From Bacteroidota bacterium (GTDB lineage: Bacteria; Bacteroidota; Bacteroidia; Palsa-948): 64,000 bases of DNA. Under the pieces are notes generated by a model. That model saw only the letters and a list, made by a program, of their open reading frames with translations, was not told the origin of the DNA and ran no database searches. The translations under genes were made by a program, and so were the position numbers. The stretch lies in NCBI GenBank assembly GCA_003164895.1, contig PLUL01000010.1, positions 1-64,000 on the forward strand, written 5' to 3'. Of the stretch, positions 9,471 to 64,000 are shown one piece after another. Numbering within the stretch: position 1 is the first letter of the stretch; every line of letters begins with the position of its first letter.

Positions 9471-9536
9471 AAAGAAAGCTCTCACCTGCGCATTTCATGT
9501 ATGAATGGTTTTTATTCCGGGAGATTGCATTTCGCC
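9468..9536 (-). pseudogene. Remnant copy of the 3' end of the 10183-13740 gene
   Basis: Read leftward in frame, 9468-9536 gives QSPGIKTIHT, stop, NAQVRAFF, stop. The real gene ends QSPGIKTIHTGNAQVRAFF with its stop at 10183. The first 63 bases align without gaps with 9 substitutions (about 86% identity), and the final stop codon is kept. A Gly codon (GGA) has become TGA in the remnant. The match fades beyond about 9536. Remnant and intact 3' end bracket the DUF433/DUF5615 pair as direct repeats. Confidence 0.85.
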
Positions 9537-9554
9537 TTACTTTTTGTATCTTTG
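9525..9554 (+). promoter_or_regulatory. Promoter of the DUF433/DUF5615 pair
   Basis: TTG at 9525-9527, a 19-base spacer and TATCTTTG at 9547-9554 match the Bacteroidota consensus well. The ATG is 40 bases downstream. The TTG element lies inside the remnant of the duplicated gene end. Confidence 0.65.
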
Positions 9555-9593
9555 CATTGCATAGATGAATATAATCTTTTGTAAAAACTAAAC

Positions 9594-9827
9594 ATGGAAT
9601 CACTACTAAGCAGAATAACAACTACTCCCGACATTTGTCACGGGAAACCCACTATACGCGGGTTGCGCTATCCTGTTGAAAATATGCTCGAACTACTTGC
9701 GTCGGGGATGACGATAGAAGAACTCCTGAAAGATTATCCTGACCTTCAGCGCGAGGATTTTCTTGCGTGTCTTGAATACGCTTCAAAACTTGCTCACCTG
9801 CAAAGCATTTATAAACTTAACTCGTGA
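9594..9827 (+). CDS. DUF433 antitoxin
   Basis: This 77-residue protein is a DUF433 (VapB45-like) domain. The motif HGKPTIRGLRYPVENMLELL, then GMTIEELLKDYPDLQREDFLACLEYA, is the typical DUF433 winged-helix pattern. In known pairs it neutralises, and often represses, the neighbouring PIN-like toxin. The downstream gene begins with a GTG that overlaps this stop by 4 bases, so the two are translationally coupled. The pair has its own promoter and lies between a gene remnant and the intact gene it came from, which points to acquisition as a unit. Confidence 0.88.
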   Translation: MESLLSRITTTPDICHGKPTIRGLRYPVENMLELLASGMTIEELLKDYPDLQREDFLACLEYASKLAHLQSIYKLNS

Positions 9828-10177
9828 AATTTATTGTTGATGCACAACTTCCGCGTCAACTTTCCGTCTTTCTCCTTCGGAAAGGACATGATTCTATTCA
9901 TACGCTTGATTTGCCCAAGCAAAACGCAACAGATGACAATAGTATTAATGCCATTGCAGATTCAGAAGGCAGAATTGTGATAACTAAAGATGGTGATTTT
10001 GTTGCAAGCCATTTAATCGCTGCAAAGCCAAAACAATTACTCTTTGTCAGTACTGGTAATATTTCTAATTCCGAATTGCTGAAAAATTTTGAAATTCATC
10101 TTGATAAAATCTGCAATTTTTTTGAAACACATTCTTTTATTGAGATTACAAAAGATATAATTATTACTCGCAAATAA
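9824..10177 (+). CDS. DUF5615 PIN-like toxin
   Basis: This 117-residue protein is a DUF5615 (VapC45/Mut7-C-like) PIN-type domain, thought to be an RNase. It starts IVDAQLP (Asp6), has a central DD pair at 37-38 and VITKDGDF (Asp56, Asp58), which together are the acidic residues expected to bind metal. The start is GTG, overlapping the DUF433 stop by 4 bases. The reading frame is intact with no key residue missing, so the toxin is probably active. It is convergent with the large outer-membrane protein gene; the stops are only 5 bases apart. The RNA target is unknown. Confidence 0.86.
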   Translation: MKFIVDAQLPRQLSVFLLRKGHDSIHTLDLPKQNATDDNSINAIADSEGRIVITKDGDFVASHLIAAKPKQLLFVSTGNISNSELLKNFEIHLDKICNFFETHSFIEITKDIIITRK

Positions 10178-10182
10178 TTATT

Positions 10183-13100
10183 TTAAAAAAACGCCCTCAC
10201 CTGTGCATTTCCTGTATGAATCGTTTTTATTCCTGGCGATTGCCTTCCATCGTAAGATAAAGTAAGCTGGATATTGTTGGCAAGCGTTCGGCTGTAGCCA
10301 ACGCTCCATGTGTAATTATTTCCGGTTTTCAATCCATCCAGCATTTGAAACGCAAGCGGAGAGTTTTCTGCATCGTTGTATTCCACTTGAATGAAATTCG
10401 CTTTCACAATCAAACTTCCTTTATTCAGCGCGTTGTATTTTAATTCACCTCCAAAATTTTGCGCAGTGGATTTTGCCTGAGGATTTGGTTCTACTATAAT
10501 TAAATTCTGCTTTTGAGAATATTTATAAGTTACGCTGATGCGAAACGCTGAGCTTGGCTGAAAACTTAATTTTGGTTCGGTTTCATAATACAAAATGTAA
10601 TAATTATTGGCGATAAAAAATTTGGAAGTGCTCTGATTGATTCCTTCTTTGGATGCATCCTGAATTGACCAATGCCTGTTCAGATTCCATCGCACATTTA
10701 ATGCACCGAATGTGTTTTCGCGCGTGGAAGTATCGTTCTCCAGCAACGTTTTGTTGCGCACATCCTGATACGAAAAATCCATTCCGAAAATCGGGTCGGT
10801 TTGATTGAAATAAATTGTGTTGCGAAAAGATGAATTCAATGTTACGAGCGAATTATCTTTCGTGTCATCCAGAAAAGGATTATACGCTGTGCTCAAATCG
10901 CCATTCGTTGTTTTGCGGTCGGTTCGGTAAGCAGTTTGATTTGAAAAACGTGAAATGATTTTTCTAATTCCTTTTTTTGTATTCCATTTCGCTGCAGGTT
11001 TTATCGTTAACACTTCGCTGAACTGATTTGTATAGGTGGCAATATAATTATCGGTGGGAATCCAAACTTTTATATAATTCGCTTCGTTCGGGTAAGGAGA
11101 AATCTCAAACTCATTCAGTTGTTTGATTCCGTCTCCATTATAATCTACCCAAATATAAACTCCCTGACCCGGAGCCACTTCAAGAAAAATAAATTCTTTT
11201 TTCACTTCCAGCCCTGAACCTACTTCATAAAAAGCATTGGAAGAAATAAAACCTTTCAGCAAAGAAAAATTATATTCTGTTCTCCCGACAACAGTGTTCT
11301 CGGGTTTTTGCGTGGTCATGTTTGTATCAATAATTGTAAGCCGGCGATAACTTCCCGTGATGCGGAACTGACTGTTGCGATTGTGCAAAAGCTCCACTCC
11401 TCCGCCAACACTTTGTGAGTATGTTGCTTTACGCACTTGAGAATTTTTATCGGCGTAATCCGTTCGCTGTTTGTAATCGATGGTGTATTTATTTTTTGAT
11501 GAATCCTGATATTCGGCATACGGTTCCCATTCGAGAAACTTATAACTTCCCGTCATCAGAGAATCTATGGTTCTTGACCTCAAAAAATTTTGTTCCTGCT
11601 GTTCACGAATTCCAATAGTGAATCGGTTTATTTTTTCTGAAAGAGATGCGGTGCTTCTCAAAAAATTTGTTGCGTCAATGGTACTTTTCGAATCAAGATA
11701 ACTTCCGTCCATTGTAAAATGCAATCCTTTGTATCCGAGATTTGTATGCAACGCATTTTTCATTCCGTTATAAGAATCTCCACCAAGCAACGCTTTGTAA
11801 TCGTAGCCGATAATATTTTGTTTATTCGCAACGCTTACATTTCCGCCAATAATATTTTGGTCGAAGGTAAGAGGTGCCGTCCCTAAATTCCAGTCGCGTT
11901 CAAATTCCACCGGACGAAAACGCTCAATTGCCGAAAAGTTTTTCTGAACATATTCATAATTAATATTTGTCAAAAGTTTCCACGCTTTTGCCTGTTCCTC
12001 TTTTATGCAGATTGAATCATCCTCAAAATAAGAATGGGGTTTAGAAAGTAAAATACCATTATCAAAATTAAGTTTGCCTGCATATCCAACATCACCCGAT
12101 TTTCCAATGGTCGAAAAAGTATTGACATCATTATTGCTCACCGCACCTTCAACCGAAAGCTTTGAATGTTTCGACAGAATAAAATCAGCTCCGGCACTTA
12201 CCATTTGTTTTTTCTTTGGCGCGGCGAGAAGAATTACCGGTTCATACGAACCTTTTAGCTGATTGGTGATTGAGTCAGGACGAATCCATTGATATACTTG
12301 CCCGTTTGCAGCAGATTGAATCGGCATATAATTTCCTTTGTTGATTCCCACATAAGAAAAACTCAAACGAAAATGTGCTTTGGTGCTGTCAGTAGAATAA
12401 ATATAAATGATATGATTGAGGGTATCTTTTTTTCGATATAAAACTTCGGTGTTGTTAAACGGAATACTGTCGCCTGTTGGCCACACAGCTTTTTGCACGC
12501 TATCACCAACGCTTCCCAATAATTGTTTTTGCGGGTCGGTGAGTGATTGCTGAAGCGGTTTGTTTTTGTTGTCTTCTTCCGAATAAATATTGATTCGCGC
12601 TTTGATGCCTTTGTCTTCATATTCCGTTCCGGCATGAATCAGTGAGCGGGAATAATTTTGTGCCGAATATTGAAATTCCGCCACAATGCGCATATCCGAA
12701 GTAATAAGATTTTGCGGAGTGAAAGTGATTTCAGAAGTATTATAATTAATTACATAATCATTGCCCTGTCCGCGCACAAGCAGTTTCCCATTCAGATAAA
12801 TTGCCTCGGTTCCTGAAAGCACAACGATAAATTGTTCATTCTCCGCTCCTCGCAAAATGTATGGTCCCTGATTTTTTTCCTGAACCGTACCGTTGAAAGT
12901 GTTTCCGTTGGAACTTTCCAGCGAAACATTCCGGGAAAATTTTCCTTTTGAAATTCCAACGCTTGCGGTAGTTGTAAGTTTTTCATGATTAGCATTTGTA
13001 ACTTCGGTCAAAAAACCAAGTCCTTGAATTTTTTTATTGAAGTTCATGAAATACCCGTTCGGTTTTCCCAATTGCATATCTCCGGCGGTAACAGTTGTCT

Positions 13101-13740
13101 TTCCGAACTTGGGCAAATCTCTTATCGTAAACTGAATAAATATTTTATCAAATTCCTGAAGCTGTTGAGTAGTTCCTTCGGGTTGAATGGGAACATTTTG
13201 GTCAGTGGCAACCATTTTGATGTCAATATTATCGCTGAGTTTTCCCGCCAGTTGTAAATTCAAATTCGAGTTGAGAACTACGCTCTGATTATTTCCGAAA
13301 GAAAGTCCGCGAGATAAGCTGCCGCTTTTTGTCAACCCTTCTGTTTTGAAAAAATCAATGTCTTTTGATTTATCGTAGGAATAAGCGTAAACATTTCCAA
13401 CTTGATTGTTCTGAATTTTGTTTACATCTTTATGCTGATATTTTTGGGAGAAGAAATAAGGAAAAACTTTATAAGAGATGCTGATTATATCAATTGAATT
13501 GTCTTGCCGAATGAACAGCGCATTTACATAATCCATTTTGTAAGAAGTAGAATCGAGGTTTGAGCCGTTTGCCCTTTTTACCGAGATAGTTCCCGGAATA
13601 ATACTGAGCGTATCCAATTTTATACTGTCTTTGTCAATACTGATTTTTTTTGTACGAATATTGGATTGAGCAAAAGAATAGCAAGAAGCAAGAAGCAAGA
13701 AGCAAGAAGCAAGAATTTTAAATTCGTAATTCGTCTTCAT
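10183..13740 (-). CDS. Large outer-membrane beta-barrel-like protein, SprA-like motifs (tentative)
   Basis: This 1185-residue protein has an N-terminal signal peptide and then mostly amphipathic beta strands to a C-terminal Phe-Phe, as in outer-membrane barrels. Around residues 130-260 a conserved-looking block (GSLSRGLSFGNNQ, LNLQLAGKLSDNI, VTAGDMQLGKP) recalls the SprA family of the type IX translocon, but it is half the length of SprA, so I do not give a symbol. The signal peptide core is encoded by five copies of a 7-base repeat that also create lipobox-like LASC motifs at Cys13 and Cys20; a cut after FAQ near residue 25 is also possible. A 13-base direct repeat straddles the start codon. 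A mutated copy of its last 23 codons lies at 9468-9536. Confidence 0.72.
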   Translation of the reverse strand: MKTNYEFKILASCFLLLASCYSFAQSNIRTKKISIDKDSIKLDTLSIIPGTISVKRANGSNLDSTSYKMDYVNALFIRQDNSIDIISISYKVFPYFFSQKYQHKDVNKIQNNQVGNVYAYSYDKSKDIDFFKTEGLTKSGSLSRGLSFGNNQSVVLNSNLNLQLAGKLSDNIDIKMVATDQNVPIQPEGTTQQLQEFDKIFIQFTIRDLPKFGKTTVTAGDMQLGKPNGYFMNFNKKIQGLGFLTEVTNANHEKLTTTASVGISKGKFSRNVSLESSNGNTFNGTVQEKNQGPYILRGAENEQFIVVLSGTEAIYLNGKLLVRGQGNDYVINYNTSEITFTPQNLITSDMRIVAEFQYSAQNYSRSLIHAGTEYEDKGIKARINIYSEEDNKNKPLQQSLTDPQKQLLGSVGDSVQKAVWPTGDSIPFNNTEVLYRKKDTLNHIIYIYSTDSTKAHFRLSFSYVGINKGNYMPIQSAANGQVYQWIRPDSITNQLKGSYEPVILLAAPKKKQMVSAGADFILSKHSKLSVEGAVSNNDVNTFSTIGKSGDVGYAGKLNFDNGILLSKPHSYFEDDSICIKEEQAKAWKLLTNINYEYVQKNFSAIERFRPVEFERDWNLGTAPLTFDQNIIGGNVSVANKQNIIGYDYKALLGGDSYNGMKNALHTNLGYKGLHFTMDGSYLDSKSTIDATNFLRSTASLSEKINRFTIGIREQQEQNFLRSRTIDSLMTGSYKFLEWEPYAEYQDSSKNKYTIDYKQRTDYADKNSQVRKATYSQSVGGGVELLHNRNSQFRITGSYRRLTIIDTNMTTQKPENTVVGRTEYNFSLLKGFISSNAFYEVGSGLEVKKEFIFLEVAPGQGVYIWVDYNGDGIKQLNEFEISPYPNEANYIKVWIPTDNYIATYTNQFSEVLTIKPAAKWNTKKGIRKIISRFSNQTAYRTDRKTTNGDLSTAYNPFLDDTKDNSLVTLNSSFRNTIYFNQTDPIFGMDFSYQDVRNKTLLENDTSTRENTFGALNVRWNLNRHWSIQDASKEGINQSTSKFFIANNYYILYYETEPKLSFQPSSAFRISVTYKYSQKQNLIIVEPNPQAKSTAQNFGGELKYNALNKGSLIVKANFIQVEYNDAENSPLAFQMLDGLKTGNNYTWSVGYSRTLANNIQLTLSYDGRQSPGIKTIHTGNAQVRAFF
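13681..13715 (-). repeat. 7-base tandem repeat (GCAAGAA x5) in a signal peptide region
   Basis: Five perfect copies of GCAAGAA (TTCTTGC on the coding strand) encode residues 9-20 of the outer-membrane protein (ILASCFLLLASC). Three units restore the frame and repeat LASCFLL. A gain or loss of one or two units would abolish translation of the gene. Confidence 0.95.
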
Positions 13741-13751
13741 TCGTAATTCGT
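13722..13751 (-). repeat. 13-base direct repeat around a start codon
   Basis: ATTCGTAATTCGT occurs at 13722-13734 and 13739-13751, separated by 4 bases. Each copy is itself made of a 7-base unit (ATTCGTA). The start codon at 13738-13740 lies at the seam, with one copy just inside the gene and one just upstream. Confidence 0.9.
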
Positions 13752-13797
13752 AGAATTGACAAAGTTGCGCAATTCGTTTCAGATAACGTGCAATTAC

Positions 13798-63152: not shown

Positions 63153-64000
63153 TTAATCCTCTTTCTTTTTGAAATAGTGATCGAGGAAAAAATTTCGGTA
63201 CTCATCAATTTTTTTCTCTTTCTTATCCTTATAGAAGGTGGCAAAATTTTCTGTTGATATAGGAAATATTTGGTAATCTTTTGTAGAAAGTCCTTTGAAA
63301 ACAACGCTGTCCTGATTGATAAAATCATAATAATCTTTTGCTTTTCCGGAGAGAGGGAATTTTTTTACCATAAAAAGCTGGTGGTCCATATCCAAAAGCA
63401 AATTGCTTATTGTGAGATCGGATAAACGATAATATTCATTATTGAAATTGGTAATTTTCACCATAAAATCATTTATGTTGACTTGTTTTGCCGATACGAT
63501 TATCATGCACTGATGCTCCGAACTATCTTTAAAAGTGTATGGCGATTTATAAATTGCAGCAGTATCTTTTTTCAATGCGGCAGAATCTACCGGAGCTTTT
63601 TGCAGTTGCTTAATATGATCAATAAGTTCCTGCGCTTTTGCTTTTGCCGGATCTTTTGGATATTTTGCAATCACTCCTTGCAATGCATGTTCATAATCGT
63701 TAGCACCTTTAGTTTTCCCTATAGAAAATGCACGCAGAAGTGCAAACTTGGGCATAAGTTTACTACCGCTGTAAAAAGAATCGGCTTTACCTACCATTGC
63801 AATAACCTCGTCGTATTTCCCTCCGCTGTAAGCAGAATAAGTTTCAGAATAAAATTTTTCTATTTCATTTTGAGATGCCTGCAATTGTCTTTGATAATCA
63901 GGATTATTAATAATTTTTGCATACTCCGATTCGGGATACTCATTCAGGATTTTATTTTTATAAAAATTCGCTTTGCTTTGTTCTTTATTCGCCAGATATA
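63153..64000 (-). CDS. PorW/SprE-like type IX secretion lipoprotein, C-terminal part
   Basis: The frame reads from the right edge to the stop at 63153, so only the last 282 residues are visible; the N-terminus lies beyond the window. An internal TTG at 63884 could be taken for a start, but the frame is open upstream and keeps the same character (LNEYPESEYAKIINNPDYQ). This phrase and the next TPR-like helices (YSAYSGGKYDEVIAMVGKAD, DYEHALQGVIAKYPKDPAKA) are as in PorW/SprE, the lipoprotein that supports the type IX translocon. The C-terminal 130 residues are alpha/beta. It is convergent with the TMTC-like gene (17 bases between stops). Confidence 0.78.
   Translation of the reverse strand, partial: YLANKEQSKANFYKNKILNEYPESEYAKIINNPDYQRQLQASQNEIEKFYSETYSAYSGGKYDEVIAMVGKADSFYSGSKLMPKFALLRAFSIGKTKGANDYEHALQGVIAKYPKDPAKAKAQELIDHIKQLQKAPVDSAALKKDTAAIYKSPYTFKDSSEHQCMIIVSAKQVNINDFMVKITNFNNEYYRLSDLTISNLLLDMDHQLFMVKKFPLSGKAKDYYDFINQDSVVFKGLSTKDYQIFPISTENFATFYKDKKEKKIDEYRNFFLDHYFKKKED

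Follow-up and report, generated by a model that had tools for sequence, protein, structure and literature searches.

Does a short tandem repeat that lies in the signal peptide of an outer-membrane protein, and that shifts the reading frame with each unit gained or lost, have to be a switch? Microsatellites in the coding DNA of bacteria are usually taken for on/off switches, and heptamers are usually regarded as intergenic elements. The question is raised by an array in the window, i.e., the whole stretch of 64,000 nucleotides analysed here, which comes from the genome of a Bacteroidota bacterium (G000). TRF detected at 13680-13715 a repeat of period 7 with 5.1 copies and a 100% match; read on the minus strand it is (TTCTTGC)x5 (13681-13715), one of the two TTCTTGC arrays of the genome. 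The array lies within the ORF at 10183-13740 (minus strand) and codes for residues 9-20 of MKTNYEFKILASCFLLLASCYSFAQ. Both the TRF result and the translation of this ORF agree with an earlier note on this DNA, which had read the perfect GCAAGAA x5 of the plus strand as the hydrophobic core of a signal peptide, here ILASCFLLLASC. When the sampled genome was simulated with a Markov-3 model, no period-7 run as long as this one arose. TRF also revealed a second, degenerate array of ACGAATT-like heptamers at 13721-13752 (minus strand), which takes in the ATG start codon together with some of the n-region; ACGAATT-like heptamers surround the start codon in the congener G006 as well. Elsewhere in the window, a 1125-aa coding sequence carries an octamer array (CAATCAAC x4.6, 1991-2027) and a heptamer array (CCATCAA x4.6, 2940-2971), outside any signal peptide.

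The sequence bears out that a change of one unit in the 13681-13715 array breaks the frame. With one unit more or one unit less, the normal ATG frame misses the mature protein, and only short TTG starts inside the array, without an n-region, are left. The companion claim, that a change of three units alters nothing except the length of the signal, did not hold: the loss of three units leaves MKTNYEFKILASCYSFAQ, with the core reduced to ILASCYSFA, which would probably be too short to function.

On this layout the earlier note had proposed a phase-variable contingency locus, of a kind that it had not seen described for such a protein. A precedent exists. The opa genes of Neisseria carry (CTCTT)n within the leader peptide of an outer-membrane protein (PMC3745409), and here as there a short non-triplet repeat sits where the gene of an outer-membrane protein codes for the signal peptide and a unit change shifts the frame, so that one-unit slippage at 13681 could act in the population as an on/off switch of the protein. 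The opa repeat, however, is a pentamer of variable copy number in one multi-copy antigen family, and most copies are out of frame, fewer than one in three being in frame (on average 1.7 opa genes are in frame per isolate vs 3.4 expected; PMC13183285), whereas the arrays of this genus are heptamers of many different units, found in many unrelated housekeeping exported proteins and all in frame. The phase-variable heptanucleotide SSRs of Haemophilus influenzae hmw1A and hmw2A are likewise tied to a surface protein, but they usually lie in the promoter and have 13-38 units, their copy number being strain-dependent (PMC2651432); the genus arrays have 3-5 units, five in the case of 13681, and lie in the signal peptide.

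If such arrays served as switches, out-of-frame alleles should be met. The arrays of the genus were collected by a pattern search for TTGGCTA and TTCTTGC that ignores whether the frame is open. TTGGCTA arrays were found at seven loci in G000 and at four in three congeners, and 11 of 11 are in-frame signal peptides. With the two TTCTTGC arrays, 13 of the 13 genus arrays found by unit pattern are in frame, which has a probability of about 6e-7 if the three frames are equally likely. No look-alike of an off allele was seen by eye among the five intergenic arrays of the G000 sample. Neither does the locus have the special status expected of a contingency locus, because the genus has many unrelated genes for exported proteins that are built in the same way. 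The genes that bear signal-peptide arrays include those for PorW/SprE, PorP/SprF, LptC, NamZ and Bat-like proteins; mostly they are not candidates for phase variation, and many, such as LptC and PorW/SprE, are machinery.

The repeat is also not conserved as an SSR at the same locus in relatives, the relatives compared being MAGs. In the nearest one, G005, the five units are decayed (CTTGCTA CTTGTTG CTTGTTA CTTGTTG CCTGTTT), G001 has a different unit, (GCTATTG)x4, and the G003 ortholog has no repeat in its signal peptide. In the G002 ortholog the core is replaced by a palindromic GC-rich repeat, and outside the genus a heptamer array is missing at this locus from all of the 60-odd orthologs. 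At the gene start of the G002 ortholog (L014), a palindromic CCTCTCCTGTGGAGAGG-type repeat forms the c-region of the signal peptide; it seems to be a case in which repeats of another class have come to occupy this position. The orthologs of G001, G003 and G005 show no in-frame ATG and probably start at TTG.

How the units change can be followed in PorW/SprE, a T9SS lipoprotein (NF052312) the 3′ part of whose gene occupies 63153-64000 of the window (minus strand). The signal peptide of PorW/SprE, which lies a little beyond the end of the window, contains TTCTTGC x4 (contig C1:65746-65774; L001 5747-5774), the genome's only other array of this unit, and the array adjoins a real lipobox. The source genome (TTCTTGC x4) and G005 (TTCTGGC x4) have their units at the same offsets, -32, -25, -18 and -11 from the lipobox Cys; a second common register is formed by TACTTTG (G006), TACTTTT (G003) and TACATTG (G002). 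The units of neighbouring species differ by one substitution that is present in every full unit, and the signal length to the Cys is 23-25 residues across species. As judged from these alignments the PorW/SprE units evolve in concert at nearly constant length, the evidence for homogenisation coming mainly from this one gene in five species. Since the substitution reaches every unit while the length hardly changes, slippage or conversion between units is needed. Unit number was measured to be the same in the PorW/SprE pair, and by inspection it is apparently the same in the 13681 array and likewise in the C66 gene.

Concerted turnover thus lends the opa-type reading some support, as it indicates that arrays of this type slip; for a mutation to reach all units, slippage is implied, perhaps by way of out-of-frame intermediates, so that some switching may occur, and rare switching may also take place at the 13681 array. 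Weighed against the five units, the frames, the stable unit numbers, the machinery genes and the missing conservation, we consider a phase-variable contingency locus unlikely here: of the original proposal the layout stands, with a signal peptide that contains a non-triplet SSR, but not the special status of the locus, the off alleles or the conservation of the SSR.

To place the array among its kind, we analysed 1.09 Mb of G000, a sample made up of stretches that amounts to about 34% of the genome; genes in it were the longest ORFs, and a simple heuristic rule of our own, not SignalP, was used to call signal peptides. The sample contains 43 period-7 tandem arrays, vs 0-13 for periods 5, 6 and 8-11; with a threshold of at least 14 lag-7 matches 24 of the 43 are retained, and the other periods yield at most two. 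Period 7 is the dominant, and the sole strongly overrepresented, tandem-repeat class in the sampled genome. Sixteen of the 43 arrays lie in signal peptides, which make up 1.8% of the bases (0.76 expected; P=1.7e-17). The number of intergenic arrays is that expected by chance (5 vs 5.3), so that the density is about 0.82 arrays per kb in signal peptides vs 0.037 in intergenic DNA, a difference of ~22-fold. Frame-keeping periods (3, 6 and 9) showed no enrichment in signal peptides of the sample. When synonymous codons were redrawn for the same signal peptides, 0.42 arrays were obtained instead of the 16 observed, hence the repetition sits in the DNA and not in the peptide alone. This control, together with the absence of arrays from TM helices (0 of 43, with 3.3% of the bases), rules out that hydrophobic composition by itself produces the arrays. 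The signal-peptide arrays of the sample use many different heptamer units, and units common to several loci form 15 pairs vs 1.2 by chance. In array-free signal peptides, a codon-shuffle lag profile had lags 7 and 14 raised among the longer non-triplet lags, but over a baseline inflated by the localised hydrophobic core, for which reason this profile was given no weight. The enrichment is repeated in G006 (5 of 21 arrays, P=4e-5; two further cases were found by eye). Heptamer-built export tags are therefore many in one groundwater bacterial genus, and not one locus.

The T9SS C-terminal sorting domains (Por_Secre_tail, confirmed by Pfam) also carry heptamer arrays, three in G000 (L046 1266-1289, L052 17860-17879 and L070 17337-17354) and three in G006 (L266 9177 and 10779, and L271 18379); the Por_Secre_tail-like region accounts for about 0.5% of the bases of the G000 sample.

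Could the arrays be passive relics, i.e., T-rich hydrophobic stretches that slipped into short repeats through mutation bias and loose constraint only? Signal peptides are under loose constraint, and of all long SSR classes heptanucleotides were reported to be the commonest in most surveyed genomes, and explained by polymerase contact, in work of Mrazek as cited in PMC4679880 and PMC4692102. Known examples are the TAACTGA repeats of Beggiatoaceae and some Bacteroidetes (PMC4679880) and the GGGNATC repeats of Xanthomonas and Nostoc (PMC4692102). The arrays of the genus resemble these repeats in their period of exactly seven, their several units, their patchy distribution and their excess over other periods. 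As described, however, heptanucleotide repeats are mainly intergenic, whereas those of the genus lie inside the coding sequence of export signals: with 5 of 43 arrays intergenic and 16 of 43 in signal peptides, they depart from the predominantly intergenic class of long SSRs. Moreover, intergenic DNA is at least as tolerant as signal peptides and yet has the 22 times lower density, TM helices are likewise hydrophobic and hold no array, and frame-keeping repeats, of periods 3, 6 and 9, show no excess in signal peptides. Tolerance alone fails to account for this distribution, and a passive origin appears improbable to us.

The intergenic pattern does occur elsewhere in the same taxonomic class. 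All 16 sampled period-7 arrays of G192, a genome of a different family, are intergenic, and none of the six TTGGCTA arrays from three genomes of other families is in a signal peptide; the idea that a given unit marks signal peptides everywhere is refuted by its intergenic position in G192. Whether a genome is prone to heptamers and whether it places them in signal peptides are thus two separate traits. The G192 sample (L286-L305, 0.38 Mb) holds 16 period-8 arrays beside the 16 of period 7, all of them intergenic, and the G012 sample contained no period-7 arrays.

The protein behind the array has 1185 aa and is predicted to be an outer-membrane protein (10183-13740, minus strand). Orthologs were found in 36 of 40 relatives; it is conserved across Bacteroidia and present at 67 loci in GTDB genomes, with titles that are nearly all Bacteroidota MAGs. 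In its AlphaFold model (pLDDT 76) long strands make up almost all of the C-terminal two thirds, and on this model the protein is predicted to form a large β-barrel. Among solved structures, the folds of SprA and LptD come nearest; their TM-scores, normalised by query length, are no better than 0.13-0.26, and these matches, with SprA on top (TM 0.26), are too distant to name the protein by fold. No Pfam or NCBIfam match at threshold and no PDB sequence match was obtained, and it belongs to no named family. Identity with the SprA/Sov T9SS translocon was rejected: there is no TIGR04189 match above the cut-off and no NCBIfam match at E<=0.01, and a single ortholog matches TIGR04189, at E=0.003 only. 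Downstream of the gene lies a decayed partial copy of its 3′ end (window 9471-9527 vs 10183-10239), and between the two are two small genes (9594-9827 and 9824-10177) that by eye are toxin-antitoxin-like; the arrangement at 9471-10239 looks as if such a pair had been inserted with duplication.

The signal peptide MKTNYEFKILASCFLLLASCYSFA (13669-13740, minus strand) followed by Q is a normal Sec signal peptide. An A or S followed by Q is conserved at the mature start of the orthologs (AQ in the alignment consensus), a lipobox Cys is not, and SPase I-type cleavage is predicted before Gln25. The two LASC motifs, which the earlier note had taken as lipobox-like, are an accident of the repeat unit, because the heptamer encodes FLLLASC, and LASC arises in any gene with that unit, and because the orthologs keep A/S then Q, mostly without Cys. 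A dual lipoprotein signal in which unit number selects between two LASC lipoboxes, compatible as LASC is with a loose lipobox, and although the sister array in PorW/SprE sits on a real one, is for the same two reasons very hard to credit.

The explanation that we favour, and regard as likely, is that slippage-born heptamers have been recruited as Sec signal-peptide cores and are held in frame by selection, the 13681 array being one of a genus-wide class. The 1185-aa protein would then be an ordinary, constitutively exported outer-membrane protein, and its array renewable material for an export signal, not a maintained switch. Strand slippage would create heptamer runs, and a stop-free T-rich heptamer would read as one hydrophobic heptapeptide in all three frames; since the segment needs only hydrophobicity, almost any run would be a usable core. 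Single-unit changes would then shift the frame and be removed by selection, so that the array stays in frame at a fixed unit number, while conversion between units, or slippage that is paired or involves three units, could carry a mutation from one unit to the rest. The excess in signal peptides could come from selection locking in-frame arrays, from seeding in the T-rich core, or from a benefit of renewable signals. A bolder version, which we put forward tentatively and find rather doubtful, makes seven-base slippage the export-signal generator of the genus, in which the arrays of Sec signal peptides and of T9SS sorting domains would continually arise, become homogenised and give way to others; if slippage does generate export signals, the export of envelope proteins is possibly tuned.

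In the open-access literature searched we found no report of SSRs in signal peptides of Bacteroidetes, nor of heptamers that are concentrated throughout a genus in its signal peptides and sorting domains. These results call for caution, as a frame-shifting repeat in a signal peptide need not be a contingency locus. The genus puts heptamers in both kinds of Bacteroidota export signal, and does so in genes that one would expect to stay on at all times; it offers a natural system for studying the origin and turnover of signal peptides.
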